DNA of 40,891 nt. Origin: Bacteroidaceae bacterium (lineage in GTDB: Bacteria > Bacteroidota > Bacteroidia > Bacteroidales > Bacteroidaceae). Of the stretch, positions 4,334 to 19,123 are shown piece by piece (within the stretch, counting starts at the first letter, position 1; each line of letters begins with the position of its first letter). Made by a program: the position numbers and the translations under genes. The stretch spans positions 1-40,891 of the forward strand of contig JAFXTO010000028.1 of assembly GCA_017535725.1 (NCBI GenBank), in the 5' to 3' direction. The notes beneath the pieces were generated by a model, which made no database searches, had not been told where the DNA came from, and saw nothing but the letters and a program-made list of their open reading frames with translations.

Positions 4334-7168
4334 ATGAATAGAATCAAGGCAATCGTTGGGCTGCTCCTGCTGATGGCGGGACAGGTCGTGGCACAGACAA
4401 CCGAGTATGAAAGCAATCGCGGATTCATCCATCCGGGCGGACTGCACACACAAGAGGACTTCGACCGTGTTAAGGCGCAGATTGCTGCAGGTAACAAGAC
4501 GGTAAAGGCCGCCTTTCAGAAGCTGACGTCTTCGGAGTACTCGCAGGCCAGTGTGCAGACTTACCCCACGGAAATCATCGTGCGCGGTGGCGGCAACGGC
4601 GAAAACTATATGAATGCGGCTCGCGGTGCAGCGATGGCCTATCAAAACGCGCTGCGCTGGAAGATTGCTGGCACGAAGGCTAATGCCAACGCTGCTGTGC
4701 GCATACTGATGGCTTGGGCACGCACGACGAAGGGAATTGGCGGCGATTCGAACTATGCCCTTGCGGCCGGACTCTACGGCTACCAGTTTGCGCAGGCCGC
4801 CGAGTTGATGCGTGACTACGAAGGGTGGAGCCGCGAGGACTTTGCTGAGTTCCAGCTCTGGATGCTCAATGTGTGGTACCCCTCGGCAATCGGCTTCCTG
4901 CGTGGACGTAATGGAACGTGGGAGAACGCCGGCAAGTGGTGGCAAGCTCCCGGACACTACTGGAGCAACTGGGGACTCTGTAATGCGCTATGTGTCATTA
5001 GCATCGGCGTATTGTGTGACGATGTTTTCATCTACAATCAGGGCATGTCTTATTTTAAATACGACCAATGCGGCACGTTCAAGGATCCGCGCACGGAGAC
5101 TCCTATTAAGAATGATGGTTTGACAGAATTCCTTGGCAATCTGGTAGTAACGACCTACGAGAGCGAGTTGGAGACGGGTGCATACGGGCTGTTGGGCCAA
5201 CTGAACGAAAGCGGACGCGATGCAGGCCACTCATCAATGTCGCTTGGCGTGGCACTCGACGTAGCAAAGGTGGGCTGGAACCAGGGCGATGACCTCTTCG
5301 CCTACATGGATCACCGCCTCGCTGCGGGCATCGAGTATCTGGCGGCGCAGTCGCTGAGTGTGGAGGGGTTGCCGTGGGTGGATTATATCTATGGCACGAA
5401 CGGATATTACTACACCGACTCGCGTTGCTGGACAATGACCAGCCCAGCCATGGGCGCTCAGATGCGGCCCTACTGGGGCACCGTCATCGGCATTTATGAG
5501 GGCGTGAAGGGCGTGCAGATGCCTTTTGCCGAGCAAGCTTACGCGAATATGGGCATCGACGGTGGCGGTGCGGGTTCGACCAGCGGCGGCTATGACCACT
5601 TGGGCTTCTCCGTGCTGATGAACACACGCGATATACAGCTCTGCCCTGCCGACCAAGTGCCGACGGAACTGCAACCGCAGATGACCTACAGTGGTGCCGT
5701 GAACACAAATCTCATCCCCTCGCTCACGCAGGAGCGGACGCGCAAGCTGGTCAGCGGCAAGACCATCCGCCACAACGAACTGGGCGGGCTGGTCAATACC
5801 TTCACCGTAAACAACAACACCACCGTGCCTGCGGGGCAGACACTGACGCTGCAACCCCAACTGCCCGAGGGTGAGGAGGACACGGGCCGCTGGCTGTGGA
5901 GCACGGGCGAGACTACACGAGAGATCACCGTCGGCACAGACAGCAGCCGCATCTATCGCGTACATTATATCAATAAGAATGGCATTGAGAGCCAGCTGGC
6001 ATTCTTCATAGCCTCCACGGGCGACTGCATCCCCGACGAACTGAGTCCCCGCGTCACCGTGGCCGGCGGCGAGGAACAGCAGACGGCCTCAGTAGATGTG
6101 CTTTACGGCAAGAGCGTGACACTGGGTGTGCAGCCCTCGCGTGGATGGGGAACCTATAAATGGAGCACGGGTGCCACCACGGCCACGCTCACCAAGAACG
6201 TGACGGCGGACGTTCAATATACGCTCGACTTCAAGAATCAGGGCGGTGCCTTGACATCCATCACCTTTGACATCCGTATGTTGCCCGCGTTGCCCTACGT
6301 TAGCCTCGGCACATCAGCGGCACAGGAGGGACGGACGCAGGTGGTGGCCTCACCAGGTCAGAGCGTCACTTTAGGGCTGACGCTGCCTTCGACCGTGAAA
6401 CCCGCGGCTGTGCAGTGGAGCACAGGAGCCACGGATGCCACGCTGACGCTGGATGACGTGCAGACCTCCACCACCTGCACCGCCACCTTCACCCTGCGCA
6501 ATCAGGAATACTCTTTCACCTTCGAGGTCTTTGTCTCTGCCACCGATGCAGCCCCCTTCGAGGACGGCACCTACCTGCTGCGCCACGTGGCCACAGACAC
6601 CTATCTCACCGCCACAGAGAAGGGTCAGCCGGTCACCTTCCAGCCCGCAGGAACAGGTGATGGAGTGCAGCTCTGGCTGGTGCAGCACAACGCCACGGGG
6701 AAGTATGACTTTATAAGCCTGGCCACCGCAGACAGCCTCCACCTGGCCATAAGCGGCAAGCTGGCCGCGTCGGCCTACTATCCCTTTTATCTGGACCAGG
6801 CTGTGGGAAGCACGCACATAGCCCTCTGCACGGGTTCCAACTCTGCCCGCAAATACTGGGATGCCGCTGCCGACGGCACCGTCCTCACTGCCGCTTCTAC
6901 AAAGCTCGATGCCTTCCCTTTCGAGCTGGTGGCCGTGAGTTCCACGGGAATTGAGGAAGTGAGGCCCCTCTCTAACTCCCCCCGTGGGGGGGAGGACTCT
7001 TGGGCAAATGGTCGCTCGGCCCAAGGGGACGCTTCACACTTGAAGAAATGGTATGACCTCAGTGGAAGACAAATCGCCCCCCTTGGGGGGCCACAGAGGG
7101 CTTTGTCATCTTCCGTACTCTCTAAGGGGGTATATATTGTGAACGCCCGGAAGGTAGCTGTCCGTTAA
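4334..7168 (+). CDS. Secreted alginate-lyase-like enzyme with Ig-like repeats, ricin-like domain and T9SS-type tail
   Basis: 944 residues. After a signal peptide (MNRIKAIVGLLLLMAGQVVAQ) comes an alpha-helical toroid resembling the Alginate_lyase (PF05426) group, about residues 30-440. Conserved-looking clusters are HYWSNWGLCNA and NESGRDAGHSSMSLG, the latter like the Arg/His site of such lyases. Then come three Ig-like repeats (each with W.WSTGATT), a beta-trefoil/ricin-like domain (starting near DGTYLLRH, about 740-870), and a C-terminal WYDLSGRQI...KGVYIVNARKVAVR motif typical of Prevotella sorting tails. Probably a polysaccharide lyase or related enzyme on a uronate-containing glycan. It is first in an operon, with the GH43 gene 13 bases downstream. 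Two GC-rich repeat insertions interrupt the linker and the tail itself (6962-7049 and 7075-7131) without breaking the frame. Confidence 0.75.
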   Translation: MNRIKAIVGLLLLMAGQVVAQTTEYESNRGFIHPGGLHTQEDFDRVKAQIAAGNKTVKAAFQKLTSSEYSQASVQTYPTEIIVRGGGNGENYMNAARGAAMAYQNALRWKIAGTKANANAAVRILMAWARTTKGIGGDSNYALAAGLYGYQFAQAAELMRDYEGWSREDFAEFQLWMLNVWYPSAIGFLRGRNGTWENAGKWWQAPGHYWSNWGLCNALCVISIGVLCDDVFIYNQGMSYFKYDQCGTFKDPRTETPIKNDGLTEFLGNLVVTTYESELETGAYGLLGQLNESGRDAGHSSMSLGVALDVAKVGWNQGDDLFAYMDHRLAAGIEYLAAQSLSVEGLPWVDYIYGTNGYYYTDSRCWTMTSPAMGAQMRPYWGTVIGIYEGVKGVQMPFAEQAYANMGIDGGGAGSTSGGYDHLGFSVLMNTRDIQLCPADQVPTELQPQMTYSGAVNTNLIPSLTQERTRKLVSGKTIRHNELGGLVNTFTVNNNTTVPAGQTLTLQPQLPEGEEDTGRWLWSTGETTREITVGTDSSRIYRVHYINKNGIESQLAFFIASTGDCIPDELSPRVTVAGGEEQQTASVDVLYGKSVTLGVQPSRGWGTYKWSTGATTATLTKNVTADVQYTLDFKNQGGALTSITFDIRMLPALPYVSLGTSAAQEGRTQVVASPGQSVTLGLTLPSTVKPAAVQWSTGATDATLTLDDVQTSTTCTATFTLRNQEYSFTFEVFVSATDAAPFEDGTYLLRHVATDTYLTATEKGQPVTFQPAGTGDGVQLWLVQHNATGKYDFISLATADSLHLAISGKLAASAYYPFYLDQAVGSTHIALCTGSNSARKYWDAAADGTVLTAASTKLDAFPFELVAVSSTGIEEVRPLSNSPRGGEDSWANGRSAQGDASHLKKWYDLSGRQIAPLGGPQRALSSSVLSKGVYIVNARKVAVR
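6962..7049. repeat. In-frame composite palindromic repeat in the lyase-like gene
   Basis: The left part is a GC-rich palindrome around CTCCCCCCGTGGGGGGGAG. The right part is a hairpin module: CGCTCG, then GCCCAAGGGG, then ACGCTTCACACTTGAAGA, with TTCA-cact-TGAA at 7033-7044. The same right-hand module recurs near 12139, 14539, 14580 and 16502. It translates as a low-complexity linker (PLSNSPRGGEDSWANG) before the sorting tail. Confidence 0.7.
7075..7131. repeat. In-frame GC-rich palindromic repeat inside the sorting tail
   Basis: The GCCCCCCTTGGGGGGC palindrome is followed by spacer and CTCTCTAAGGGGG. It separates the two halves of the usual tail (DLSGRQI and KGVYIVN), which are contiguous or nearly so in the family. 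Confidence 0.6.
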
Positions 7169-7181
7169 TGCATGATTGGCG

Positions 7182-8927
7182 ATGATCAAGTTCAAGTACT
7201 ATTGTCTTTTGCTGGCATTGAACCCACTCTGGGTGAATGCACAATACAGATCGGAGGTCTGGTCGCCCGACCGCTCGGCCGAAGGACGCTTGCAAGGCAA
7301 GAACGGCGACGGAACCTACACGAATCCTGTATTGTATGCCGACTACAGCGACCCCGATGTGTGTGCGGTGGGTGAGGACTATTACTTGACGGCCTCGTCG
7401 TTCAACTGCGTGCCGGGGTTGCCGATTCTACATTCACGCGACTTGGTGAACTGGGAGATTGTGGGGCACGCACTGCAGGAGCTGGAGCCGAAAGAGTTGT
7501 TTGACAAGCCCCAGCACGGCAAAGGCGTGTGGGCTCCTTCCATTCGTCATCATAACGACACCTTATATATATATTGGGGCGACCCGGATCATGGAATCTT
7601 TATGGTGAAAGCCCCTGTAAGTGAAAAAGGAAAAGTGAAAAGTGAAAAATGGTCTGCGCCTAATTGTGTGATTACAGGCAAGGGGATGATTGACCCGTGT
7701 CCGCTGTGGGACGAGGACGGGCGCTGCTACTTGGTGAATGCATGGGCCAACTCGCGGGCGGGCTTCAACTCCGTGCTCTCTGTGAGGGAACTCTCTGCTG
7801 ACGGCACAAAGGCAATTGGTCAGCCTCGCATCGTGTTCGATGGCGGGCAGGAGAATCATACAGCTGAGGGGCCGAAGTTCTACAAACGCGATGGTTGGTA
7901 CTGGATACTATGTCCTGCTGGTGGCGTGGCGATGGGCTGGCAGTTGGCTATGCGAAGTAAGTCGCCATATGGCCCCTACGAATGGCGGCGCGTGATGTGG
8001 CAGGGCAAGACCGACATCAATGGACCTCATCAAGGTGCGTGGGTTCACACGGCCTTCGGCGAGGATTGGTTCCTGCATTTCAATGACAAAGGAGCCTATG
8101 GGCGAGTTGTCTATCTGCAACCTGTTGATTGGTCGAGCGGTTGGCCGATTATGGGACGCCTCATCCCCAACCCCATTCCCGAGCAAAGCTCGCCTACCCG
8201 TAGCCTTTCTCCTGTGGGCGAGGGGAGTGATTACATTGGAGAGCCTTATAAGAGCTATCACAAGCCAAAGTCAAATAGCAAATTAATTGTGAATCCGCAG
8301 GAGAGCGATGAGTTTAATGATGGCTTAGGGTTGCAATGGCAGTGGCACGCTAATTACCATCAGTTCTACGGTCAGCCCACAGCCTACGGTACCTACCGTC
8401 TCTACACGATGGACCCGCCTACAGAGTTTAAGAGTCTTTGGGATGTTCCCAACCTGCTGCTACAGAAGCCTACGGCGCCTCGTTTTACAGCTACTGCCAA
8501 GGTGCGTTTCGCTGCAAAAGAGGACGGACAGTATGGCGGACTGGTGATGATGGGACGCGATTATTCCGCACTTGTTATCTGTCGTGAGGGCGATGCGTTC
8601 CAGCTTCAACGGCACACGACCATAGGGGCCGATGAAGGAGCAAGTGAAATGCAACAGGCCATCACCACCTTGCAGCCTACTGACCGCGACACCATCCCCT
8701 ACGCCCCTGCCATTTATCTCGACATCTTCCTCCGCCTCACCGTAAAGGACGGTATCGTGAACTTTTCTTATAGCCAGGACGGCAAACATTTCAAGTCTGC
8801 CAGCGATCCTTTCAAGATGCGTGAAGGCAAGTGGATTGGTGCCAAGTTCGGTTTTGTGGCCGAGTGTTGTGAACGCAAGGCGAGCCGCGGCTGGCTGGAT
8901 ATCGACTGGATAAGAATCACAAAATAA
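7182..8927 (+). CDS. Secreted GH43 glycosidase with C-terminal beta-sandwich domain
   Basis: About 581 residues. The ATG at 7182 gives a signal peptide (MIKFKYYCLLLALNPLWVNAQ); a TTG two codons upstream is less likely. The GH43 propeller carries the Asp in YSDPDVCAVG (base), the Asp in MIDPCPLWD (pKa modulator) and the Glu in TAEGPKFYKR (acid). The C-terminal part (from about DEFNDGLGLQWQW) resembles the concanavalin-like domain of beta-xylosidase/arabinofuranosidase GH43s. Probably removes xylose or arabinose in the periplasm or at the cell surface. Second gene of the operon. In-frame repeats occur at 7269-7300 (CGCTCG...CGCTTG-like), 7620-7652 (AGTGAAAA tract, VKSEKW) and 8166-8232 (CTCCTGTGGGCGAGGGGAG palindrome), each where homologues would have a short loop. 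Confidence 0.9.
   Translation: MIKFKYYCLLLALNPLWVNAQYRSEVWSPDRSAEGRLQGKNGDGTYTNPVLYADYSDPDVCAVGEDYYLTASSFNCVPGLPILHSRDLVNWEIVGHALQELEPKELFDKPQHGKGVWAPSIRHHNDTLYIYWGDPDHGIFMVKAPVSEKGKVKSEKWSAPNCVITGKGMIDPCPLWDEDGRCYLVNAWANSRAGFNSVLSVRELSADGTKAIGQPRIVFDGGQENHTAEGPKFYKRDGWYWILCPAGGVAMGWQLAMRSKSPYGPYEWRRVMWQGKTDINGPHQGAWVHTAFGEDWFLHFNDKGAYGRVVYLQPVDWSSGWPIMGRLIPNPIPEQSSPTRSLSPVGEGSDYIGEPYKSYHKPKSNSKLIVNPQESDEFNDGLGLQWQWHANYHQFYGQPTAYGTYRLYTMDPPTEFKSLWDVPNLLLQKPTAPRFTATAKVRFAAKEDGQYGGLVMMGRDYSALVICREGDAFQLQRHTTIGADEGASEMQQAITTLQPTDRDTIPYAPAIYLDIFLRLTVKDGIVNFSYSQDGKHFKSASDPFKMREGKWIGAKFGFVAECCERKASRGWLDIDWIRITK
7620..7652. repeat. AGTGAAAA-type tract inside the GH43 gene
   Basis: An AGTGAAAAAGGAAAAGTGAA-like simple tract encodes SEKGKVKSEKW in a loop before the conserved GKGMIDPCPLWD. 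The same motif appears at 3192-3219 (reverse), 11129-11178 and 12226-12262 (reverse). Confidence 0.65.
8166..8232. repeat. In-frame GC-rich palindromic repeat in the GH43 linker
   Basis: GAGCAAAGCTC followed by CCTTTCTCCTGTGGGCGAGG, ending in GGGAG. It encodes SSPTRSLSPVGEGSDY between the propeller and the C-terminal domain, and belongs to the CCCTCTCC/GGAGAGGG family. Confidence 0.6.
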
Positions 8928-8980
8928 ACGGCGATGGTGCCAAGGATGACATCCATTAACTTCTCATAATTACTTAGACT

Positions 8981-10840
8981 ATGCGCAAGCTATATATTTC
9001 TCTTCTCCTTTTGCTGTCATTGCATGCCTCCGCTCAGTGTCGCCTCAGTTCGCCCGACGGGCGAAACCAGTTTGTAATCGCGCAGACTGGCGATGAGTTC
9101 GTTTATAGTGTTTCTCACGATGGCAAGGCGATAGTGAGCGACTCGCGTTTGGGGCTGGACTTGGATAATTATACTTGGGAGCGGGCTCTCGCACGCCATT
9201 ATCCGCAGTACGACTGTTGGATGAATGGCTTTACGATGGATTCTGTCAGCACCTCTGAGCATCGAGCCACGATTACGAACCTATGGGGCGAACAGGCCGT
9301 GGTTCCCGACAACTACAATGCTGCCACGCTTCACCTCTCCAAACACGACGGTAGCAACTACCGGCTGGACATCGAGATGCGGGCATACAACGAGGGCATA
9401 GCTTTCCGCTATTTCCTGCCCGAACATCCGCAGGCGGTGTTCCACAAAGTCACGGCCGACCTGACGGAATACTCGTTTGAGCCTGGCACGAAGGTGTGGG
9501 CTGCCGAATGGGCGCAGGCTCCATACGAATTGAAACTGGTGGAAGAGGTGACCAGTCCCATTGAACGTGCCGTGACGGTAGAGCTATCCAATGGCCTCTA
9601 CTGCGCCTTGGCTGACGCCGATGTCGATGACTGGTGTCTGGAGAAGAACGTGGCCTCAGCGACGAAACCCAGTACGCTCACCACTACGATGTACTCGCCC
9701 GTGGATATCGTGACCTACTACGCCACGCCCTGGAAGGTTATCATCACGGCAGAGAGCTACGCCCAACTGCTTGAGCATCGCTATATCATCGACAACCTGA
9801 ACCCGCCCTGCGAGATACCCGATGCGGCAGAGTGGATCAAGCCCGGAACCATCATGCGCTGCACAACGCTTTCCACTGAGGCGGTTCTGCGCAACATAGA
9901 CTTCTGTGCCCAGCACCATATCCCTTATATGCTCTTCGACTGGAAATGGTACGAGCCTTGCACCAGCCACGACGGAGATGCCACAAAGGTCATCCCACAG
10001 ATTGATATGCCGCGTGTTGTTGCCTACGGACGCCAGCACGGCGTAGGCATCTGGCTTTATGTGAACCAGCACGCTCTTCAAAAGCAGATGCGCCAGTTGT
10101 TCCCCCTGCTGCATGAGTGGGGCATTGTCGGGGTGAAGAGCGGCTTCGTGGAATACGCTTCGCATCGCTGGGCAGTCTGGCTTCATGACATGGTGCGCTA
10201 TGCTGCTGAGAACCATCTCATGATAAATATCCATGATGAATACCGGCCGTCGGGTTTCTCGCGCACTTATCCCAACCTGCTCACGCAAGAGGGCATACGC
10301 GGCAACGAGGAATTCCCCGATGCCACGCACAACACCGTCTTGCCCTTCACCCGTATGATCAATGGTCCTGCCGACTACACCATCTGTTACTACGACCGCC
10401 GTCTAAAGAATACTCACGGTCACCAGCTTGCGGCTTCGCTCGTCTATTATTCCCCGCTCACCACACTCTTCTGGTACGACAAGCCAGAAACAGCCAACGA
10501 CGAGCCGGAACTCCGTTGGTTCGACAACCTTAAGACCGCTTGGGACGAGACTCGTGTCCTCGATGGTGCACCTGGTTCACACATCGTCATCGCCCGCCGC
10601 AGCGGAGAGGAATGGTATGTAGCTGCGATGACAAATACCGAGGCGCGGATGGTTACGATTCCCACCGACCTCCTCGAAGAAGGCAAACGATACACCGTCA
10701 CGATATTTAACGATGATCCAGCGGTAAACACCCGCACGAAGGTCAGCGTTAAGACGATTACCATCAAGGCAGGAAAGTCTATCACTTTACAGCTGCAACC
10801 CTGCGGTGGAGCAACAATGCATTTTACATTATCACATTAA
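8981..10840 (+). CDS. Secreted GH97-family glycosidase
   Basis: 619 residues. Signal peptide MRKLYISLLLLLSLHASAQ, an N-terminal beta-sandwich (about 20-270), a catalytic TIM barrel (about 280-540), and a C-terminal beta domain. GH97 hallmarks are YMLFDWKWY, HGVGIWLYVN, NIHDEYRPSGFSRTYPNL, TQEGIRGNEE and THNTVLPFTR. GH97 includes inverting alpha-glucosidases (SusB) and retaining alpha-galactosidases. Here the 'GVKVDF'-like position that carries the Asp nucleophile in retaining members reads GVKSGFVEY, so this copy probably belongs to another GH97 subgroup and should not be assumed to be a retaining alpha-galactosidase. Third gene of the operon, 53 bases after the GH43. No repeat insertion was seen in it. 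Confidence 0.88.
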   Translation: MRKLYISLLLLLSLHASAQCRLSSPDGRNQFVIAQTGDEFVYSVSHDGKAIVSDSRLGLDLDNYTWERALARHYPQYDCWMNGFTMDSVSTSEHRATITNLWGEQAVVPDNYNAATLHLSKHDGSNYRLDIEMRAYNEGIAFRYFLPEHPQAVFHKVTADLTEYSFEPGTKVWAAEWAQAPYELKLVEEVTSPIERAVTVELSNGLYCALADADVDDWCLEKNVASATKPSTLTTTMYSPVDIVTYYATPWKVIITAESYAQLLEHRYIIDNLNPPCEIPDAAEWIKPGTIMRCTTLSTEAVLRNIDFCAQHHIPYMLFDWKWYEPCTSHDGDATKVIPQIDMPRVVAYGRQHGVGIWLYVNQHALQKQMRQLFPLLHEWGIVGVKSGFVEYASHRWAVWLHDMVRYAAENHLMINIHDEYRPSGFSRTYPNLLTQEGIRGNEEFPDATHNTVLPFTRMINGPADYTICYYDRRLKNTHGHQLAASLVYYSPLTTLFWYDKPETANDEPELRWFDNLKTAWDETRVLDGAPGSHIVIARRSGEEWYVAAMTNTEARMVTIPTDLLEEGKRYTVTIFNDDPAVNTRTKVSVKTITIKAGKSITLQLQPCGGATMHFTLSH

Positions 10841-10854
10841 TAGTCCCACTGATT

Positions 10855-12132
10855 ATGCGAACTCGTTTATTACTATTCATTCTTCCTGTGTTTTTCTTAG
10901 CCTGCCGACAAGAACAAGCATTTGATGCTGATAGGCAGCTGCAGTATTGTCATCAACAAGTAGAACGAGCTTTGGTTGCACTGCGTGACAGCACATACAA
11001 CTATGATTTTTCAATGATGCCACGCAATATTCTGGAAGGCGATACCATTTGGAACCTTCGTAAAGCCAAACCTGAAGAATGGTGTTCGGGCTTCTGGGCA
11101 GGCGTGCTCTGGATGGACTATGAGTATAAAGTGAAAAATGATAGAGTGAAAAGTGAAAAATATGATTGTGAAAAGTTGAAGGAGGTTGCAGAAGGCTATA
11201 CGGAGGCACTGATACCCGTCGTGGAGGCACCCGTCTATGACCACGACCTTGGGTTCATCACCATCAACTCATTCTTGAAGGGATATGAGGTAACGAAGAA
11301 TGATCGCTACCGCGAAGTAGCCCTGCGCGCTGCCGACTCCCTCGCCACGCTCTTCAATCCCACCGTCGGCACCATCCTCTCTTGGCCCCGTCACGTAAAA
11401 GACTATGGTGGTCACAACACCATCATGGACAACATGATGAATCTGGAACTGCTGTTCTGGGCAGACCACGACAGCATCGCTGTCCGCCACGCCGAGACCA
11501 CGATGAAGCACCATTTCCGCGAGGATGGCAGCTGTTACCACGTCGCCGTTTATGACACGTTGGACGGCCACTTCATAAAAGGCGTGACACATCAGGGCTA
11601 TGCCGACTCTTCTATGTGGAGCCGTGGACAGGCGTGGGCCATTTATGGCTACACAATGGTTTATCGCTACACTCACGACCAACGCTTCCTCGACTTCGCA
11701 CAGAAAGTCACCGACATCTATCTGAAACGATTGCGCGAGACCAGCGATGACTGGGTTCCCTATTGGGATATGGACATTCCGGAAGTGAAAAATGAGCAAA
11801 CAACTCGTCAACTTGTCAACTCGTTTACTCGTCAACTCCTCGGATTAAAAGATGCTTCTGCGGCGTGCGTGGTAGCCTCGGCTTTGTTGGAACTCTATCA
11901 ATATGTAGGAGGTGAGAAAGCTACGACCTATCGCGAAGCGGCCATCAATATGCTCCTAGATCTCAGCACCGACCGTTACCAGAGCCGCGACCGCAACGTC
12001 GCTTTCCTAATGCACTCCACAGGCCACCATCCCGCAGGCTCCGAAATCGATGCCAGCATCATCTATGCCGACTACTATTATATTGAAGCTCTTAGCCGGT
12101 ATAATAAACTATCTTTAAACTCTAAACTCTAA
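10855..12132 (+). CDS. GH88 unsaturated uronyl hydrolase, lipoprotein
   Basis: 425 residues with a lipoprotein signal (MRTRLLLFILPVFFLAC). The (alpha/alpha)6 barrel shows GH88 signatures: WCSGFWAGVLWMDYEY, TIMDNMMNLELLFWA (with the catalytic Asp before NMMNL), and SSMWSRGQAWAIYGYTMVYRYT. GH88 enzymes hydrate and release the 4,5-unsaturated uronic acid left at the non-reducing end by polysaccharide lyases. That fits the lyase-like genes on both sides and points to a uronate-containing substrate. It lies 14 bases after the GH97 gene. Two in-frame repeats are present: an AGTGAAAA tract at 11129-11178 (VKNDRVKSEKYD) and a CTCGTCAACT decamer tract at 11783-11838 (TTRQLVNSFTRQL), both where relatives have short loops. 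Confidence 0.9.
   Translation: MRTRLLLFILPVFFLACRQEQAFDADRQLQYCHQQVERALVALRDSTYNYDFSMMPRNILEGDTIWNLRKAKPEEWCSGFWAGVLWMDYEYKVKNDRVKSEKYDCEKLKEVAEGYTEALIPVVEAPVYDHDLGFITINSFLKGYEVTKNDRYREVALRAADSLATLFNPTVGTILSWPRHVKDYGGHNTIMDNMMNLELLFWADHDSIAVRHAETTMKHHFREDGSCYHVAVYDTLDGHFIKGVTHQGYADSSMWSRGQAWAIYGYTMVYRYTHDQRFLDFAQKVTDIYLKRLRETSDDWVPYWDMDIPEVKNEQTTRQLVNSFTRQLLGLKDASAACVVASALLELYQYVGGEKATTYREAAINMLLDLSTDRYQSRDRNVAFLMHSTGHHPAGSEIDASIIYADYYYIEALSRYNKLSLNSKL
11129..11178. repeat. AGTGAAAA-type tract inside GH88
   Basis: AAAGTGAAAAATGATAGAGT followed by GAAAAGTGAAAAATA. It encodes KVKNDRVKSEKYD between helices of the barrel. Confidence 0.65.
11783..11838. repeat. CTCGTCAACT decamer tract inside GH88
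   Basis: A short AGTGAAAAATGAG start runs into AACTCGTCAACTTGTCAACT and CGTTTACTCGTCAACTC. It encodes VKNEQTTRQLVNSFTRQL just before the conserved DASAACVVASALLEL helix. Confidence 0.7.
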
Positions 12133-12189
12133 ACCCTACGCTCGACCTATGGTCGCTTGACCCTTCAAGAACTCTAAACAATTCAACTC
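12113..12189. repeat. AAACTCT heptamer repeat with hairpin module between GH88 and fusion gene
   Basis: AAACTCTAAACTCTAAACCC is followed by CGCTCGACCTATGGTCGCTT and GACCCTTCAAGAACTC, then the heptamer resumes (TAAACAATTC). CGACC-tat-GGTCG and CTTGA-ccct-TCAAG form stems. The block overlaps the end of the GH88 gene and ends beside the ATG at 12190. Confidence 0.7.
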
Positions 12190-14799
12190 ATGCGCACCCG
12201 TTCCTTATTATTTATCATTTCTTTATTCTTCACTTTTCACTCTTTCACTTTTCATTCTTTCGCCCAGTCCGACCTCCGAGACTACAAGATGGCAGGCCCC
12301 TACGATGTTGTGGCCCGCGACGGTGAGTTCCGTGCTTCGAAGGGCGGCAGCGAGCGGGATATGTGGACGGCGTGGCAGTGTGCGAAGAGCTCAGAGAGCA
12401 CAGAGCAGACAGAGGACACAAAGGCTTGCACCACAAAGGCATTAGAGATAATTAATGCCTACGCCGCAACATTGCAACGCTTTGACGGTCATGATGCGCC
12501 GCTGTGTTGTATCCAAGGTTATTGGTTGGTGAGGGCGATGACCATTCTGCGGTCGCACGCGACAGCTGAATGGGGAAGCATGATTCGACGGGCAATGCTG
12601 CCGACCATCGACAAGTTCGAGGCAGACAGCCCATACGCTAATGGCAACTGGGGAGCGATTGTGAACCGTTGCAGGATGGCCTGTGCCATCTTCTTGGAGG
12701 ACAGCACGCTCTATCAAGCCAGCATTGACTATTTCCTACACGCCAACGACAACGGCTCGCTGCCCAACTACGTCAGCGAGACAGGTCAATGTCAAGAGAC
12801 GGGCCGCGACCAAGGTCATGCACAGTTGGGACTTGGTGCTATGTGCGACATCTGCGAAATGGCTTGGGAAGGGCTACGGGCAGGCGACGGCACGTCGGGG
12901 ATGCAGGGCAATGACCTTTGGGGCGCTCTTGACAATCGCCTCATGAAAGGGATTGAGTACTCAGCGAAGTATAACCTCGGCTACGACGTACCTTTTGAGA
13001 CATGGACGGACTGCACAGGACTTTACAACGACTGGACAGAGCCCGGCTCGATGGGACGTGGTCGCATCCGCTGCATCTACGACCTTCCCTACAACCATTT
13101 CGTGAAACGAAAGGGATTGAAGATGCCCTATACGAAGAAGCTTCTCGACCTGCAACGAAAAGCCGAGAAGCGCGGAGAGATACAACAGAACCCCGAGGCC
13201 AATCAGTTCACGGTGAAGGGTGTACAGGAAGGCGAGCGCCTGCATCAGGTCTTTACCTATCCAGCTCCCGATGGCGCTCCGCTGAAGCACGACTATGATG
13301 TGTTCGTACAGCCGCGAGGTAGTAAGGAATGGACGAAGGTGGATACGTATATGGCGAAGGTGAATAGCAGCCCCACCCCCGATCCCTTCCGTAATGGAGG
13401 GGAACCTGGCGGAGGGAAACACCAAGTATCGGAGATAAGTTACTGCGTGTTTGACTTCACTGGCGATGTCTTTGTGCGGGTCATTTCCAAGAACCGCAAG
13501 TTCACGACGGCGCGGATTCGTCCTGATTATCGTGGGACGATTGCCAATGTTCAGAACGATAGCACCGTTCAATTTCTCTTGTTTCAGCCAGAGAATGTCA
13601 GTGTGGAACTCGACGGCGACATCACCAACAATCTGCTCGTCTTCACCTCTAAGCCACCCGTGTCGAAGGAAGACGCAGAGGCAGAGGCTAAGACACAAGG
13701 ACGTACCTTCAAGTATTATGCTCCTGGTTACTACGCTACGCCCGATAGCATCGCCGTACCCTCCAACACAACGGTCTATCTGGCACCAGGCAGCTACTTT
13801 GCAGGCACATTCAGCATTGACGATGCCCACGACGTGAGTATTCTCGGACGAGGTATCGCCCGTCCGACAAGAGGCTACGAGGGCTGTCGCATCAGACGCG
13901 GAAAGAATGTCCTTGTCGATGGTCTTGTGCTGAACACTTGTCCGATGGGCGAGTCGCAGAACGTCACCCTGCATGATGTACGCAGTATCTCTCATCCCTC
14001 GTGGGGCGATGGGCTTAACATTTTCGGCGGCTGCTCAGACATCCTCTTCGACCGCGTGTTTTGCCGCAACAGCGACGACTGCACCACGGCCTACGCCACA
14101 CGCAAGGGTTTTAATGGCAATGTCCGTAATGTGACGATGCGAAACAGTACACTTTGGGCCGATGTGGCACACCCAATCATGATTGGACTACACGGGAACT
14201 CAGAGCGCGGCGACACCATTGAACACCTGCGCTACGAGAATATCGACATCCTCGGACAGGCAGAACCACAGGTGGATTATCAAGGCTGCCTCGCCATCAA
14301 CTGCGGTGACAACAATCTGGTACGCGATGTGGTCTTTGACAACATCCGTATTGAGCAGATTCAGCAGGGAAGTATCCTACAAGCGAAAGTATGCTGGAAC
14401 GACAAGTACTGCACCGCTCCCGGTCGCGGCATCGAGAACATCACCTTCCGAAACATACGGTATTATGATTTAGTTGACAAGTCGACAAGTAAACAAGTAA
14501 ACGAGTTGGATGACCACAAGCATAACAAACAACTTGTCCGCTCGGTGCTTTGCGACGCTTCACGCTTTAAGAACTCGTCCGCTCGAGCTTGCTCGCTTGA
14601 TACTTCAAGAACTAACCTCTCCATCATCAATGGTTACAACGAACAACGTTGTGTTCGCAACATCACTTTCGAGGGTCTGAAAATCAACGGCCGTACCATC
14701 TACGACGAGATGCCAGGCAAGCCACGCTGGTACAAAACTGCCGATTACGTGCCCATATATGTCGGCAACCACGTAGAAAATATCCTGTTTAAGAAGTAG
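12190..14799 (+). CDS. Fusion of alginate-lyase-like domain and GH28/GH49-like beta-helix
   Basis: 869 residues, predicted secreted. Residues about 27-310 resemble the alginate-lyase-like toroid of the 4334 gene: GNWGAIVNRCRMACAIF and ETGRDQGHAQLGLGAMC parallel HYWSNWGLCNA and ESGRDAGHSSMSLG. Residues about 330-490 form a beta-sandwich (ending VSVELDGDITNNLLVF), as in front of GH49-like helices. From about 500 on there is a right-handed beta-helix with WGDGLNIF, NSDDCTTAYA and GLHGN in the order of the GH28 NTD / DD / GHG sites. Two catalytic modules in one chain suggest lyase-like cleavage coupled to hydrolysis of a uronate-rich glycan. The signal peptide core (FTFHSFTFHSFAQ) is encoded by a repeat at 12226-12262. 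Other in-frame repeats lie at 12389-12422, 13369-13420 and 14471-14613. Last gene of the operon. Confidence 0.75.
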   Translation: MRTRSLLFIISLFFTFHSFTFHSFAQSDLRDYKMAGPYDVVARDGEFRASKGGSERDMWTAWQCAKSSESTEQTEDTKACTTKALEIINAYAATLQRFDGHDAPLCCIQGYWLVRAMTILRSHATAEWGSMIRRAMLPTIDKFEADSPYANGNWGAIVNRCRMACAIFLEDSTLYQASIDYFLHANDNGSLPNYVSETGQCQETGRDQGHAQLGLGAMCDICEMAWEGLRAGDGTSGMQGNDLWGALDNRLMKGIEYSAKYNLGYDVPFETWTDCTGLYNDWTEPGSMGRGRIRCIYDLPYNHFVKRKGLKMPYTKKLLDLQRKAEKRGEIQQNPEANQFTVKGVQEGERLHQVFTYPAPDGAPLKHDYDVFVQPRGSKEWTKVDTYMAKVNSSPTPDPFRNGGEPGGGKHQVSEISYCVFDFTGDVFVRVISKNRKFTTARIRPDYRGTIANVQNDSTVQFLLFQPENVSVELDGDITNNLLVFTSKPPVSKEDAEAEAKTQGRTFKYYAPGYYATPDSIAVPSNTTVYLAPGSYFAGTFSIDDAHDVSILGRGIARPTRGYEGCRIRRGKNVLVDGLVLNTCPMGESQNVTLHDVRSISHPSWGDGLNIFGGCSDILFDRVFCRNSDDCTTAYATRKGFNGNVRNVTMRNSTLWADVAHPIMIGLHGNSERGDTIEHLRYENIDILGQAEPQVDYQGCLAINCGDNNLVRDVVFDNIRIEQIQQGSILQAKVCWNDKYCTAPGRGIENITFRNIRYYDLVDKSTSKQVNELDDHKHNKQLVRSVLCDASRFKNSSARACSLDTSRTNLSIINGYNEQRCVRNITFEGLKINGRTIYDEMPGKPRWYKTADYVPIYVGNHVENILFKK
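12226..12262. repeat. AGTGAAAA-type tract (reverse) forming the signal peptide core
   Basis: TTCTTCACTTTTCACTCTTT followed by CACTTTTCATTCTTTCG. It encodes FFTFHSFTFHSF. On the minus strand it is the same AGTGAAAA motif found in other genes here. Confidence 0.65.
13369..13420. repeat. In-frame GC-rich palindromic repeat in the fusion gene
   Basis: CCCCACCCCCGATCCCTTCC-gtaat-GGAGGGGAACC...GGAGGG. It encodes SSPTPDPFRNGGEPGGGK in the beta-sandwich region. The arms CCCTTCC/GGAGGG pair imperfectly. Confidence 0.6.
14471..14613. repeat. Composite decamer/hairpin insertion in the beta-helix gene
   Basis: It starts with TTGACAAG-type decamers (VDKSTSKQVNELDD), then CAACTTGTC in the opposite sense, then two CGCTCG...CTTGA/TCAAG hairpin modules (the second with CTTGA-tact-TCAAG at 14596-14609). 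It separates FRNIRYYD from NLSIINGYNE, which look adjacent in this beta-helix family. Same plan as 16319-16563 and 17701-17887. Confidence 0.75.
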
Positions 14800-14819
14800 A
14801 TGACAGTTTTTTGCTAATT

Positions 14820-14957
14820 TTTGACAGAATAATGAAAAGGAATATGAGGAATATGCAGTACCTTTGCAAAAATTTTCGAAGGTGGGCTGCACCTCAGTAA
14901 TCTGAGCGAGCTCGATTGCATTCGGTTTGCACCATCATTGCACCAGATTTCTGAAAC
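14820..14957 (+). promoter_or_regulatory. Promoter plus leader block, copy 2 (ahead of GH30)
   Basis: A near-identical copy of 852-988. The -7 box TACCTTTG is at 14859-14866, 38 bases after the start of TTGACA, as in copy 1. Leader changes include GGTGGGCTG for GATGGGCTG, which restores a GGTG/CACC pairing, and the loop GTAATC. It gives the GH30/double-GH43 unit its own promoter inside the locus and may coordinate it with the GH43 gene at 1010. Confidence 0.75.
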
Positions 14958-14972
14958 AAAAACCATAGGACA

Positions 14973-16847
14973 ATGAAGAAACTGACATTATTATTATTGA
15001 TGGCCGTGGGCTTGCAGGCCTCGGCACAGACATTCACACAGTACACCACGACGGAACAGCAGCCGTGGCAGACGAAAGGCAAAGTCTCGCTCTCGACGAA
15101 AGCGAAGTCCAAATCAATTCATAATTCACAATTCATAATTCATAATTCAAAGCCCTTCCGGGCTTGGGGTACCTGTTTCAACGAACTCGACCTTGATGCC
15201 ATCCGCCTTTTGACAAAGGAGGAGCAGGAGAAAATCATGCACGACATCTTTGCACCCGACGGCGACCTGCGGTTCACTCGCGGACGTCTGACGATGAACG
15301 CCAACGACTACAGCCGTGCGTGGTACTCGTGCGATACGGTGGCGGGCGACTTCGCGCTGAAATACTTCAATATCGAGCACGACAAGGAGAACGTCATCCA
15401 ACTCATCAAGATGGCGCAGCGGTGGCAGCCCGCCATGACCTTCTGGGTGTCGCCATGGAGTCCGCCCTCGTGGATGAAGATCAACCAGGACTACTGCGTT
15501 GTCAGTTCGCCGTTTAACACGCAGCCGAAGGAGAAGGACTACTTGCTATTTAGCCCCTCTCTAACTCCCCCCGTGGGGGGGAGAATTTCCGTGGGTGACT
15601 CGGCTCTCCCCCCCACGGGGGGAACGGGGAGCGGGGCCGTTGATCCTAATGAGATGCAATTTATGGATGGTCAGCGCGGACGGCTCTTCCCCAAGAAGCT
15701 GGCCACGCAGAACTATTTCATCCAAGACCCGCGCTACCTGCAGGCCTACGCGAACATGTTCTGCAAGTTCATCGACCTCTATGCAGAAGAGAATATACCT
15801 ATCGACATGGTGATGTACCAAAACGAGGCCTACAGCTATACGCCCTATCCGGGCTGCGCGTGGACGGCAGAGGGAACGATACGTTTTAATAAGGAATATC
15901 TGGCGCCCACGCTGCGCGAGAAGCACCCCGAGGTGAAGCTCTATGTGGGCACGTTCAACACCAACCGACAGGACTACGTGGAAAAGATAGTCAGTGGCCT
16001 CACCCCCACCCCCTCTCCCAAAGAGAGGGGAGTGGATATTGATGCGACAAAGGATACTTTGATTATTCAAGGTATAGGATTTCAGTGGGAGGGCCGCGAG
16101 AACCTCGACTTTATGCGCGAGCATCACCCCGACCTTCACATGGTGAGCAGCGAGAGCGAGTGCGGCAACGGACAGATGGACTGGCGTGCCGGCGAGCACA
16201 CCTTCTACCTGCTGCACGAGTATATCGGTCGTGGCTGCGACGAGTACTACAACTGGAACTTCATCCTCTGTGACCAGGGACGCAGTGCGTGGGGCTGGAA
16301 GCAGAATGCGTTAATTCAGGTTGACAAGTTGACAAGTACACAAGTTGACAAGTTGACAAGTACACAAGTTGACAAGTTGACAAGTACACAGGTTGACAAG
16401 TTGACAAGTACACAAGTTGACAAGTTGACAAGTACACAAGTTGACAAGTTGACAAGTACACAAGTTGACAAGTTGGATGATGGTGATGGTAACAACTCGT
16501 TCGCTCGGCCCAACGGGACGCTTGACACTTCAAGAACTCGTCAACTCGTTAACTCGTCAACTGAATATACTTACCGCTACACCCCCGAGTACTACGCCTA
16601 CAAGCACTTCTCGCATTTCGTGGAGCCGGGTAGCACGCTCCTTGCCTTCTACCCGATAAAGGACGGTCTGCAGGCCATTGTCTTCCAACGTCCCGACGGC
16701 AAGCGCGTCGTCATCTGTGGCAACACGAACAACGAGGCGAAGACTCTGAGCATCGGACTTAATGGTCAAATTGTAAATGGTCCAATTGTCAAATATTTGA
16801 ATGTAACCCTCGCCGCTCATTCCTTCAACACATTTGTAGAAAAATAA
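14973..16847 (+). CDS. Secreted GH30-family glycosidase with four in-frame repeat insertions
   Basis: 624 residues. After a signal peptide (MKKLTLLLLMAVGLQASAQ) comes a GH30 TIM barrel and a closing beta-sandwich ending VTLAAHSFNTFVEK. The acid/base Glu is in VMYQNEAYS and the nucleophile Glu in VSSESECGNG. FRAWGTCFNE, RLTMNANDYS and FWVSPWSPPSWMK are family signatures. GH30 members act on beta-glucosyl, beta-xylosyl, beta-fucosyl or beta-1,6-linked glycans; the specificity here is open. In-frame insertions occur at 15113-15150 (NSQFIIHNS type), 15552-15640 and 16001-16035 (GC-rich palindromes), and 16319-16563 (six VDKLTSTQ repeats plus inverted decamers). The frame and both catalytic Glu remain intact, so the enzyme may still be active. 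It is followed 5 bases later by the double GH43. Confidence 0.88.
   Translation: MKKLTLLLLMAVGLQASAQTFTQYTTTEQQPWQTKGKVSLSTKAKSKSIHNSQFIIHNSKPFRAWGTCFNELDLDAIRLLTKEEQEKIMHDIFAPDGDLRFTRGRLTMNANDYSRAWYSCDTVAGDFALKYFNIEHDKENVIQLIKMAQRWQPAMTFWVSPWSPPSWMKINQDYCVVSSPFNTQPKEKDYLLFSPSLTPPVGGRISVGDSALPPTGGTGSGAVDPNEMQFMDGQRGRLFPKKLATQNYFIQDPRYLQAYANMFCKFIDLYAEENIPIDMVMYQNEAYSYTPYPGCAWTAEGTIRFNKEYLAPTLREKHPEVKLYVGTFNTNRQDYVEKIVSGLTPTPSPKERGVDIDATKDTLIIQGIGFQWEGRENLDFMREHHPDLHMVSSESECGNGQMDWRAGEHTFYLLHEYIGRGCDEYYNWNFILCDQGRSAWGWKQNALIQVDKLTSTQVDKLTSTQVDKLTSTQVDKLTSTQVDKLTSTQVDKLTSTQVDKLDDGDGNNSFARPNGTLDTSRTRQLVNSSTEYTYRYTPEYYAYKHFSHFVEPGSTLLAFYPIKDGLQAIVFQRPDGKRVVICGNTNNEAKTLSIGLNGQIVNGPIVKYLNVTLAAHSFNTFVEK
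15113..15150. repeat. CATAATT/CACAATT simple repeat near the GH30 N-terminus
   Basis: AATTCATAATTCACAATTCA followed by TAATTCATAATTC. It encodes SIHNSQFIIHNS right before the conserved PFRAWG start of the barrel. Confidence 0.65.
15552..15640. repeat. Double GC-rich palindrome inside GH30
   Basis: CTCCCCCCGTGGGGGGGAG and, 24 bases later, CTCCCCCCCACGGGGGGAAC, flanked by CCCCTCT on the left and GGGGAGCGGGG on the right. Each half can fold alone, or the whole can form one long imperfect stem. It encodes SPSLTPPVGGRI...LPPTGGTGSG. Confidence 0.7.
16001..16035. repeat. GC-rich palindrome inside GH30 (second)
   Basis: CCCCCTCTCCCAAAGAGAGG followed by GGAG; stem CCCTCT/AGAGGG. It encodes TPTPSPKERGV in a loop before the strand leading to GFQWEG. 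Confidence 0.65.
16319..16563. repeat. 24-bp tandem repeat with inverted decamers inside GH30
   Basis: Six near-perfect 24-bp units (each TTGACAAG twice, then TACACAAG) encode VDKLTSTQ. They are followed by GGATGATGGTGATGGTAAC, a CGCTCG...CTTGA-cact-TCAAG hairpin module (to 16534), and inverted decamers AACTCGTCAACTCGTTAACT. Left arm and right end are complementary, so the whole insertion can fold back. It separates QNALIQVD from YTYRYTPEYYA. Confidence 0.85.
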
Positions 16848-16852
16848 GAAAA

Positions 16853-19123
16853 ATGTATATGAAACGAATAATTCTTTCCCTATTGGCAATAGCTTTATGT
16901 TTGGGACTAACAGCACAGGTAACTACTCCCCTCGCCAGTCGGAGAGGGGCTGGGGGTGAGGCCTCTGGCTACCTTTTCGCCTACTTCGAGGGCGGTGGCG
17001 ACAAGAACCTGATGGAGCAGCTGCGCTTCGCCGTGAGCGAGGACGCACAGAATTGGTATGCGCTGAACGGCAACAGGCCGATCATAGCCAGTGACAGCAT
17101 CAGCGAGAGCGGCGGCATTCGCGACCCGCATATCCTGCGAGGCGAGGACGGCTGCTACTATATTGTGGCAACGGACATGCATGTGTTCGACCCGAAGCAG
17201 GGCTGGGGCGCGAACCCGGGCATCGTGCTGCTGAAGTCAAAAGACCTCGTGAACTGGACGCACTCGAAGATTAACCTCGCGAGGGATTGGAGTGAACACT
17301 TCGGCGATGCCTACTGGGTGTGGGCCCCGCAGACCATCTACGACCACAAGGCGAAGAAGTATATGATTTACTTCACGTTGCAGCGCAACGACCGCAAGAC
17401 ACTCATCACCTATTATGCATACGCCAATAAGGACTTCACGGCCTTCGAGAGCGAGCCGAAGGTGCTGTTCTCGGCCAAGTACGGCAGCATCGACAATGAC
17501 ATCATCTACAAGGATGGCGTGTACCACCTCTTCTATAAAGGCAACACGAAGGATGAGAACGGCAAGGAAATCAAGAACGGCATCCAGCAAGCGACATCTA
17601 AAAAGTTGACGGGACCGTACAAGGAGGATTTCGAGTATATTGATGCATACGCTGGAACAAGGACGCATGTGGAGGGCAGCGGAGTGTTTGAATTGAATGA
17701 AGTTGACAAGTTGACAAGTACACAAGTGGACAAGTTGACAAGTACACAAGTTGACAAGTTGAGAAGTACACAAGTGGACAAGTTGAGAAGTACACAAGTT
17801 GACAAGTTGACAAGTAAACAAGTGGACAAGTTGGGTGATGGCAATGGTAACAACTCGTCAACTCGTCAACTCGTTAACTTGTCAACTGATTATATTCTCA
17901 TGTATGACTTATACAGCTCCGGCCGCTACGAGTTCCAGCGTTCGAAGGACTTGAAGACGTTTACCAAGGAGCCAGAGTCGTTCCGTAAGGACTTCTTTCC
18001 CCGTCATGGCACGGTGATGTCGGTGACGGCCGACGAACTGGAGCGCTTGCAGCAGAAGTGGGGCTATGTGCTGACCCACGAATTTGAGAGTGATGGCAAC
18101 CCCATCATTCGTGACAAGCATACAGCTGACCCCGCCGTATTGGTGGAGGGCGACACGCTCTGGCTCTTTGCCGGACACGATGCCGCAGGCAACCAATCGG
18201 GTTACGTGATGAAGGACTGGCTGCTCTACTCGACCACCGATATGAAGCACTGGACAGAGTACCCCTCGCCCCTGCGTATCGATGACTTCAAATGGGCTGA
18301 CAGCAAGCAAGCCTACGCTGGACATGTGGCTCGTGGCAAGGACGGCAAGTATTATTGGTATGTCTCGACCAACTGGTGCGGCATCGGCGTGGCAGTGAGC
18401 GATAAGATTACCGGTCCTTACAAGGACGCACTTGGAAAACCGTTGCTTACTAACAAGGACTGCTTCGCCTCGAAACACAGCTGGGCATGCATTGATCCCG
18501 CCATCTTTATTGATAGACCCACCCCCCAGCCCCTCCCTGTGAGGGAGGGGAGTAGATACTATCAAGGCAGTAGTTCAATGGAAGAGGTAACCGCTCCCTC
18601 CCTCACAGGTGGTTCGAAGACGGAACTATTAAGTGTTCCGGCTGGAGAAGCTGCAGGGGGAGGGTCTGATGGGACTGCTTATATCATCTGGGGAAATAAG
18701 GAATGTTACTACGCTAAACTGAAGGATAACATGATTGAGATTGACGGCGACATCCATCGCATCGATGTACCCAATTTCACCGAGGCTCCGTGGATGCACA
18801 AATACAACGGCAAGTACTACCTGACCTACGCTTCGGAGTGGCCCGAGAAGATTGCCTACGCCGTCAGCGACCACATCGGCGGTCCCTACACTCCCATGGG
18901 CATTATTAGTGAGATTGCCGGCAACTCGAACACCACGCACCTGGCCATCGTCAATTTCAAAGGCCAATGGCTTTTCTTCTCTCACAACGGAGGCCTTCCT
19001 GATGGTGGAAGCTACAGCCGTAGCATCATCGCCGAGCCGATGAGCTATGACGACGAAGGGGGCATCCGTAGAATTCCAGCCTCCACCCAAGGTGTCAGCG
19101 AGATGCCGAAGACATCAAGATGA
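16853..19123 (+). CDS. Secreted double GH43 (two fused beta-propellers)
   Basis: 756 residues. Signal peptide MYMKRIILSLLAIALCLGLTAQ (a start at 16859 is possible). The first GH43 propeller (about 35-390) has GIRDPHILRG, NDIIYKDG and EGSGVF, and matches the single-domain enzyme at 1010. The second (about 410-750) has TADPAVLVEG, ACIDPAIFID and EAPWMHKYNGKYYLTYA. Each propeller shows its Asp/Asp/Glu triad, so both may be active, giving two debranching activities in one secreted chain. It forms a transcription unit with GH30. In-frame repeats at 16924-16964, 17701-17887 and 18519-18671 fall in the N-terminal linker, before the last blade of domain 1, and between FID and GTAYIIWGN of domain 2. 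It ends 4 bases from the convergent permease gene. Confidence 0.88.
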   Translation: MYMKRIILSLLAIALCLGLTAQVTTPLASRRGAGGEASGYLFAYFEGGGDKNLMEQLRFAVSEDAQNWYALNGNRPIIASDSISESGGIRDPHILRGEDGCYYIVATDMHVFDPKQGWGANPGIVLLKSKDLVNWTHSKINLARDWSEHFGDAYWVWAPQTIYDHKAKKYMIYFTLQRNDRKTLITYYAYANKDFTAFESEPKVLFSAKYGSIDNDIIYKDGVYHLFYKGNTKDENGKEIKNGIQQATSKKLTGPYKEDFEYIDAYAGTRTHVEGSGVFELNEVDKLTSTQVDKLTSTQVDKLRSTQVDKLRSTQVDKLTSKQVDKLGDGNGNNSSTRQLVNLSTDYILMYDLYSSGRYEFQRSKDLKTFTKEPESFRKDFFPRHGTVMSVTADELERLQQKWGYVLTHEFESDGNPIIRDKHTADPAVLVEGDTLWLFAGHDAAGNQSGYVMKDWLLYSTTDMKHWTEYPSPLRIDDFKWADSKQAYAGHVARGKDGKYYWYVSTNWCGIGVAVSDKITGPYKDALGKPLLTNKDCFASKHSWACIDPAIFIDRPTPQPLPVREGSRYYQGSSSMEEVTAPSLTGGSKTELLSVPAGEAAGGGSDGTAYIIWGNKECYYAKLKDNMIEIDGDIHRIDVPNFTEAPWMHKYNGKYYLTYASEWPEKIAYAVSDHIGGPYTPMGIISEIAGNSNTTHLAIVNFKGQWLFFSHNGGLPDGGSYSRSIIAEPMSYDDEGGIRRIPASTQGVSEMPKTSR
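16924..16964. repeat. GC-rich palindrome at the N-terminus of the double GH43
   Basis: CTCCCCTCGCCAGTCGGAGA followed by GGGGCTGGGGGTGAGG; stem CCCCTC/GAGGGG. It encodes TPLASRRGAGGEA between signal peptide and first strand. Confidence 0.65.
17701..17887. repeat. Tandem repeat with inverted decamers inside the double GH43
   Basis: About five 24-bp units (VDKLTSTQ, with variants VDKLRSTQ and VDKLTSKQ) run into TTGGGTGATGGCAATGGTAA and then inverted AACTCGTCAACTCGTCAACT decamers. Same plan as the GH30 insertion, but without the CGCTCG hairpin module. It interrupts VEGSGVFEL...YILMYDLY. Confidence 0.85.
18519..18671. repeat. Composite GC-rich palindromic insertion in GH43 domain 2
   Basis: CCCCTCCCTGTGAGGGAGGG, then unrelated spacer, then CCGCTCCCTCCCTCACAGGT and later GGGGGAGGG. 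It encodes TPQPLPVREGS and PSLTGGSKTELLSV, splitting IDPAIFID from GTAYIIWGN, which are nearly contiguous in GH43 proteins. Confidence 0.7.

Follow-up and report, generated by a model that had tools for sequence, protein, structure and literature searches.

Repeat cassettes of several families in frame within loops of cytosolic and secreted enzymes of Prevotella and its relatives

The window, that is, the whole stretch of DNA analysed here, is a single 40,891-base contig; the 2.9-Mb genome to which it belongs (72 contigs, 76% complete) looks like a metagenome assembly. Its glycosidase genes (6962-18671) contain about 20 repeat or palindrome blocks. These blocks probably belong to a genome-wide population of translated, frame-preserving repeat cassettes of several unrelated families, lodged in tolerant loops of proteins. 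The blocks are insertions relative to homologues, keep the reading frame and are free of stops; several families recur in the same loops, and the copies within genes differ from those between genes. Many blocks are either GC-rich palindromes, which frequently form inverted pairs, or 7- or 8-nt tandem arrays with differing units (GTTGACAA, AATTCAT, AAGTGAA).

Insertion blocks in the glycosidase genes

Thirteen blocks match a gap in homologues from the same genus: three in the GH43 gene (7176), one in the GH88 gene, three in a lyase-like gene (12190), four in the GH30 gene, and two in the double GH43 gene, with support from 14, 1, 1, 15, and 5 homologues, respectively. Six further gaps, two in GH88 and four in the gene at 4334, were left out of this count because they held no repeat or because the site lay outside the stretch. 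The original prediction had listed at least 17 in-frame blocks in the genes of this locus, a number borne out by the present count, and had assigned four inserts to GH30, where four homologue-gap blocks and a fifth, N-terminal AATTCAT block were found; its placement of blocks between conserved motifs agrees with the GH30 blocks, which sit between invariant alignment columns. The blocks, followed by one repeat in a neighbouring gene and one intergenic contrast case, are as follows (z, RNA-folding score relative to shuffles):

6964..7052 (+): GC-rich palindrome plus CGCTCGGCC..CTTGAAGAA palindrome, C-terminal tail of the gene at 4334; it includes a 31-mer identical to 15553-15583 and a relative of 16501-16541; no homologue gap shown
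7272..7301 (+): GH43 insert, residues 33-42, CGCTCGGCC-like; missing from 13/13 homologues spanning the site
7614..7652 (+): GH43 AAGTGAA tandem block (SEKGKVKSEKW), with residues 147-152 missing from 10/14 homologues; a similar peptide occurs in CTP synthase loop 130 of locus L152
8163..8237 (+): GH43 insert, GC-rich palindrome, residues 330-354; missing from 12/14 homologues, and many tblastn matches in the genus are interrupted at about residues 328/355
11126..11176 (+): GH88 insert, AAAGTGA tandem block; gap against one homologue
11790..11841 (+): GH88 AACTCGTC octamer array; 11801-11841 has a repeat depth of 21; no gap demonstrated against homologues
12229..12261 (+): lyase-like gene, TTCACTTT tandem block within the signal peptide; no gap demonstrated against homologues
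12388..12420 (+): insert at residues 67-77 of the lyase-like gene, weak tandem repeat; gap in one homologue
12871..12903 (+): lyase-like gene insert, residues 228-238 (GLRAGDGTSGM), gap in one homologue; L091 has a similar peptide in loop 505 of its CTP synthase
13373..13430 (+): lyase-like gene, GC-rich palindrome block recognised by eye; no homologue gap shown
14464..14611 (+): composite octamer and CGCTCG palindrome cassette in the lyase-like gene, gap against one homologue; it has no inverse octamer arm, and RNA folding is not in excess (z -0.25)
15116..15149 (+): GH30 AATTCAT tandem block, N-terminal, from tandem-repeat detection; in the close relatives L015 and L016 a different repeat-like stretch, equally long, stands here
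15553..15641 (+): GH30, GC-rich inverted pair, residues 200-223 extra; missing from 14/15 homologues; z -6.3
15997..16061 (+): GC-rich palindrome block in GH30, residues 346-363; missing from 14/15 homologues; z -5.6
16317..16562 (+): GH30 octamer cassette, consisting of a GTTGACAA array (24-nt higher-order unit), a spacer with nested CGCTCGG palindrome, and an inverse array; the part folded starts at 16464 (z -1.5)
16761..16794 (+): AATGGTC block near the GH30 C terminus; residues 599-606 missing from 15/15 homologues
16919..16962 (+): double GH43, GC-rich palindrome following the signal peptide; no gap demonstrated against homologues
17697..17890 (+): double GH43 octamer cassette, consisting of a stop-free array, spacer, and inverse array (z -4.95 for 17797-17890); residues 284-342 missing from 3/5 homologues, with other inserts in the remaining two
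18515..18664 (+): double GH43, GC-rich composite that adds 50 residues; missing from 5/5 homologues; z -3.6
20349..20403 (-): GC-rich palindrome at the start of a LolE-like permease; self-BLAST repeat segment
39357..40027 (no strand assigned): intergenic octamer arrays in one orientation, with no inverse arm and no open frame on the GTTGACAA strand

Different families also occupied the same GH30 loops in other genomes: genome G018 carried families other than those of the window gene at two loops, one of them an octamer block at the 15997..16061 site; at a third loop, the 15553..15641 site, genome G015 had a GC-rich block unlike that of the window gene.

Spread beyond the glycosidases

Repeats were surveyed in 440,891 bases, namely the window and 20 stretches of 20 kb, a non-random sample in that the stretches lay on contigs with matches in preceding searches, the octamer search among them; the gene models (311 predicted genes, 86% of bases coding) came from our own codon-score predictor. 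Self-BLAST yielded 132 repeat segments, 38 of them in 21 of the predicted genes, with 12 in the window, 13 in a single 20-kb stretch (asnB, pyrG, dapF, gltB, gltD), and 13 in the other 19 stretches. Segments were found in the genes for CTP synthase (4), the large (4) and small (2) subunits of glutamate synthase, a fused carbamoyl-phosphate synthase (2), diaminopimelate epimerase DapF (2), topoisomerase III TopB (2), asparagine synthase B, RnfB, and HolB, and in G018, whose stretches were picked for octamer matches, the octamer cassette lay in genes matching leucyl-tRNA synthetase, an AMP-binding enzyme, a class-III aminotransferase, and a TMEM260-like protein, and in one weakly matching glycine dehydrogenase. 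The restriction to secreted glycosidases that had originally been proposed therefore does not hold, as cytosolic enzymes carry segments too. GC-rich palindrome subtypes seemed by eye to be locally clustered, one in gltB/gltD, another in pyrG/dapF, and a third twice in the window.

Repeats from self-BLAST occupied 0.63% of coding and 11.5% of non-coding bases; GC palindromes, called by a stricter rule, were less depleted from coding sequence, with 21 of 34 in predicted genes. Periods of 7 or 8 nt accounted for 104 of 233 tandem arrays (35 seven-nt, 69 eight-nt), of which 18 lay mostly inside predicted genes and 86 outside; half of the 18 were in the window glycosidase genes, and several others were at predicted gene ends. 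The octamer pattern had 37 genome matches, vs. none for a reversed control, and was present in 27 of 81 genomes of the genus; in an order-wide draw of 247, in which just two others share its family, it was found in the window genome only.

Copies in frame were also present in a finished chromosome. The isolate P. communis E15-14 had seven GC palindromes, five of them in frame in long open reading frames: one in mfd, scoring 785 bits against a cut-off of 800, with the frame cut by the end of the locus, and others in a helicase (weak RecD2 match), close to where an ABC-transporter ATPase gene begins, directly behind an apparent signal peptide, and in a 610-residue frame without a family match. 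No GC palindrome was found in the cultured P. ruminicola KHT3 or X. ruminicola Ga6B6.

Recurrent use of loops in CTP synthase and CarAB

Three loops of CTP synthase (130, 440, and 505) were measured between protein anchors, with no frame assumed, in 110 loci; the contig scan of genomes supplied the best 80 of 582 loci. Judged by CTP synthase, the nearest 80 named loci were from Prevotella and relatives, mostly metagenome assemblies, many with titles referring to the rumen or other ruminant gut. All 106, 105, and 110 anchored distances were multiples of three with zero stops, in keeping with the frame preservation originally proposed. The loops were lengthened in 29, 13, and 32 rows (loops 130, 440, and 505), counts that include seven rows with a core identical to that of another row, apparently from the same genomes. 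Families were assigned by regular expressions, some of which were set by eye; by these patterns loop 130 held GC-rich, GTTGACAA, and GTGAAAA inserts, loop 440 GC-rich and GTTGACAA inserts, and loop 505 GC-rich, AATGGTC, and GTGAAAA inserts, with 12, 3, and 10 long-loop rows fitting no pattern; thus four families were distributed over three loops, two or three per loop, in different species. A single specific element was rejected on these grounds, and the earlier proposal that several unrelated families strike the same genes through a general process gained support. An alignment of 30 rows showed just one further internal site with at least five extra residues, at about residues 300-306.

On a tree of 94 distinct cores, from which the loops were excluded, presence and absence of inserts in the three loops required at least 22, 9, and 21 changes; 17 of 91 inner branches were strongly supported, branch support being modest, and nine loci, some of which hold inserts, were left out (seven without an anchor, two without one open frame). 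Loop 130 was native in P. communis E15-14 and, in a metagenome-assembled genome (MAG) that is 92% identical to it in this gene, had native residues replaced by a GC-rich hairpin; the inserts in CTP synthase replace native loop residues rather than insert cleanly. Five comparison sets, whose pairs were only 86-93% identical, showed no target-site duplication. Loci from sheep (L130) and goat (L132) have one common loop-130 insert, and L114 has a short stretch that reads like both ends of the octamer cassette and is perhaps a remnant of it. In three cultured strains the loops were of native length, and none of these strains had an octamer match. Beyond the genus, comparison was made with the top solved CTP synthase and glutamate synthase, the alignment of the latter covering only part of the protein, and both lacked the segments.

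The linker of CarAB behaved alike: 21 of 24 fetched loci could be anchored, all with multiples of three and no stop. In L042 (16323-19364), carA and carB are fused in one frame, and an octamer cassette occupies the linker, a region that varies widely in the genus. That the repeat made this fusion was rejected: other genomes of the genus have open frames of about 740-1,520 residues spanning the query, and the repeat therefore merely occupies the linker.

Stops, codon phase, and hairpin architecture

A pure GTTGACAA array gives TGA once per 24 nt in every frame, since 8 and 3 have no common factor. Scored on the unit strand, 14 of 17 intergenic octamer arrays were closed in all three frames, the exceptions being three arrays of G018, whereas the in-gene arrays whose unit lies on the coding strand, nine in number, were all open in at least one frame (Fisher 7e-5). 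The nine in-gene arrays all start in the same codon phase, and in them the TGA positions were changed in 25 of 25 cases (14 AAA, 10 ACA, 1 CAA), vs. 14 of 199 other codons. In 12 arrays located by homology in CTP synthase and CarAB, the TGA positions were changed in 13 of 13 cases, vs. 39 of 122 others. The four intergenic GC-rich composites had 0 of 24 frames open. P, S, T, and G made up 39% of the insert peptides, vs. 24% of the sampled proteome.

Eleven hand-picked inserts were folded as RNA, and eight had z-scores of -3 or below, down to -11, with seven folding mainly as a single long hairpin. In the window genome, the CTP synthase insert of 131 nt forms such a hairpin (z -11) with its outer arms paired as terminal inverted repeats, and a GTGAAAA insert also forms one long hairpin (z -6.8). 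An inverse array followed within 150 nt downstream in eight of the nine in-gene octamer arrays, whereas 14 of the 17 intergenic arrays had no inverse arm and the other three, alike, were at apparent gene junctions in G018. These three similar hairpin copies (L072, 7241, 7971, and 8728) stand at apparently successive junctions of an operon that we take to be Nqr-type. In the GC-rich family, plus/minus pairs were 81-87 nt apart wholly outside genes and 78-91 nt apart at gene edges; the four intergenic composites, at 81-87 nt, have an AT-rich middle, and one CTP synthase pair of the window genome, at 49 nt, does not. A CGCTCGG..CTTCAAGAAC palindrome is nested in octamer cassettes at 16497-16541 and 14537-14611 and in CarAB, and by eye in the CTP synthase of L085 and L171.

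Origin and fate of the cassettes

The mechanism we propose is that many cassettes would be built of two inverted arms around a short spacer, the arms being GC-rich palindromes or 7/8-nt tandem arrays, so that a copy could fold as a long hairpin. Cassettes would settle in a few tolerant loops or linkers of proteins across the genome, where the native loop may be replaced; any copy with a frameshift or a stop would be lost, so that survivors would be stop-free and multiples of three in length. The coding copies of GTTGACAA look like a lineage of their own, with one codon phase and every third octamer altered where TGA would be read, which suggests that they may have spread from gene to gene as ready-coding cassettes. 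From these patterns in the sequence we infer that the inserts are translated, tolerated by the protein, and copied between genes. The more specific proposal, that there are lineages of translated mobile cassettes which spread from gene to gene as coding sequence, in one frame and in 24-nt steps, compete for loops, and are separate from their intergenic relatives, is quite possible, and we hold it only tentatively.

Several points weigh against these readings. The openness of in-gene arrays is partly imposed by gene calling, and working genes must be open anyway; the common phase of the nine arrays may reflect a fixed left end plus one open frame; and AAA or ACA at the TGA position could be an amino-acid preference rather than a sign of common descent. 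The phase of the 12 CTP synthase and CarAB arrays is not independent because they were picked by a peptide motif, one of the arrays (L211) is the L042 array of the nine-array set, and another (L213) fits the octamer poorly. The GC-rich family is, by eye, read in more than one frame, phase-locking being shown for one family only, and 3 of the 11 folded inserts fold no better than shuffles (z -1.5, -0.25, -1.1). Finally, no mobilising enzyme was found, RAYT being the candidate looked at: the contig with the strong RAYT-like gene of the window genome (L108) had 0 BLAST matches to the sampled repeats, in a genome that is 76% complete, and although the RAYT-like transposase family scored above cut-off in 26 of 81 genomes, G018 had no hit yet 70 GC palindromes, so that RAYT as the mover of these families has no support. 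The RAYT-like gene (L108:6605-7204) lies amid GCGTCC..GGACGC palindromes, a further repeat family without a BLAST match in the sampled stretches.

A possible, if doubtful, alternative is that each coding copy came by insertion from the intergenic stock and then lost its stops at its own site, as proposed for selfish palindromes generally, in which case the coding copies would form no lineage of their own. The presence of the families both in and between genes and the far smaller share of coding than of non-coding bases occupied by repeats fit this account; however, TGA has mostly become AAA or ACA, each two changes away, the same variant recurs in different genes, and the inverse arm typical of in-gene arrays is missing from most intergenic ones. 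Local slippage or drift in loop length, by which tandem blocks would expand on the spot from native sequence and nothing would be copied between sites, is unlikely; it would suit the 24-nt higher-order unit of long in-gene arrays and loops that vary in length anyway, but the same families stand at many unrelated sites, and GC-rich hairpins are not products of slippage. Adaptive diversification of secreted enzymes, with inserts selected for new binding or antigenic variety, draws on the concentration of mostly coding 7/8-nt arrays in the glycosidase locus, and is quite unlikely given that cytosolic enzymes are equally densely hit in another stretch.

Strong hairpins, common among the inserts, might instead point to segments removed before or during translation, whether intron-like, by ribosome bypass, or by protein splicing. 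This is very unlikely: every anchored CTP synthase loop is a multiple of three without a stop, the coding copies lack stops, and the frame and stop pattern argues for translation and against removal. No Rfam match at gathering scores was found in the window, L042, L043, or L046, and a known structured RNA was accordingly rejected. Although the window genome is metagenome-like and the named insert-bearing CTP synthase loci are in records titled MAG or uncultured, an assembly or binning artefact is scarcely credible and was rejected, since the finished E15-14 chromosome has in-frame copies, and sheep and goat loci have a common insert. Overall, the observation made in the original prediction is confirmed and the interpretation it gave is partly supported.

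Other features of the window

Two 91-nt stretches (901-991 and 14868-14958) are 91% identical and lie just upstream of the glycosidase genes at 1010 and 14973, perhaps as a shared control region. An intergenic 22-nt tandem repeat of 3.5 copies is at 40566-40642; 22 nt ranked fourth among the periods sampled, with 15 of 233 arrays, none of which lay in a gene. In G015, a single open frame of 1,252 residues (L055, reverse strand) unites the homologues of the lyase-like gene and of GH88, in the order opposite to that of the window.

Comparison with known systems

In-frame selfish palindromes are best known from Rickettsia; the present ones are from a rumen genus and lie in cytosolic enzymes as well as secreted glycosidases. 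Many close relatives have been sequenced, and gain, loss, and replacement can be traced at single loops, which makes the survival of repeats inside proteins directly testable. Repeat-derived segments can also mislead the annotation, alignment, and structure prediction of Prevotella enzymes. A literature search, judged partly by titles and abstracts, yielded no paper on in-frame repeats of this kind in Prevotella.

The following comparisons draw on parts of the published accounts. Rickettsia palindromic elements (RPE) are palindromes of about 100-150 nt, of several families, found in frame in unrelated conserved genes and also between genes (PMC2229807, PMC10969869); for R. conorii, ten families with 44 insertions are given (PMC10969869). 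The present inserts are like RPE in that most of those folded do so strongly and in that they lie in frame in unrelated conserved genes; unlike RPE, they are hosted by Prevotella and relatives, in another phylum, and have arms that include 7/8-nt tandem arrays. In the present set, different families reuse the same loops, and copies within genes are built differently from those between genes. Intragenic REPs of the GTAG and CGTC superfamilies are palindromes and dimers inside coding genes (PMC3733652), and palindromes in genes are common to both systems by description; octamer arrays go unmentioned in the part of the REP account considered. In REPINs, REPs form an inverted pair able to form a hairpin (PMC3116915), which is also often true of the GC-rich family, and of that family only; unlike REPINs, the contig with the RAYT-like gene is without the sampled repeats.

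Miniature inverted-repeat transposable elements are resembled in the terminal inverted repeats, with outer arms paired in hairpins such as that of the CTP synthase insert; as to target-site duplication, none was seen in the five sets compared, at 86-93% identity and with the native loop replaced. Cyanobacteria are known to have short tandem heptamer repeats (STRR). The TAACTGA repeats of Beggiatoaceae are dispersed 7-nt tandem arrays, mainly intergenic and with some in Bacteroidetes, whose forward insertion would end a gene (PMC4679880). Dispersed 7-nt tandem arrays in many copies are common to both of these and the present repeats, the likeness being in unit length and dispersal only; unlike the Beggiatoaceae repeats, the coding copies here are without the stop. 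In the mitochondria of Nematomorpha, inverted repeats lie inside translated genes and their arms encode conserved protein (PMC6649704), whereas the arms here lie in variable loops. The principle is thus the same as in known in-frame palindromes, and what is new is the host group, the tandem-array arms, the stop-free coding copies, and the repeated use of the same loops.

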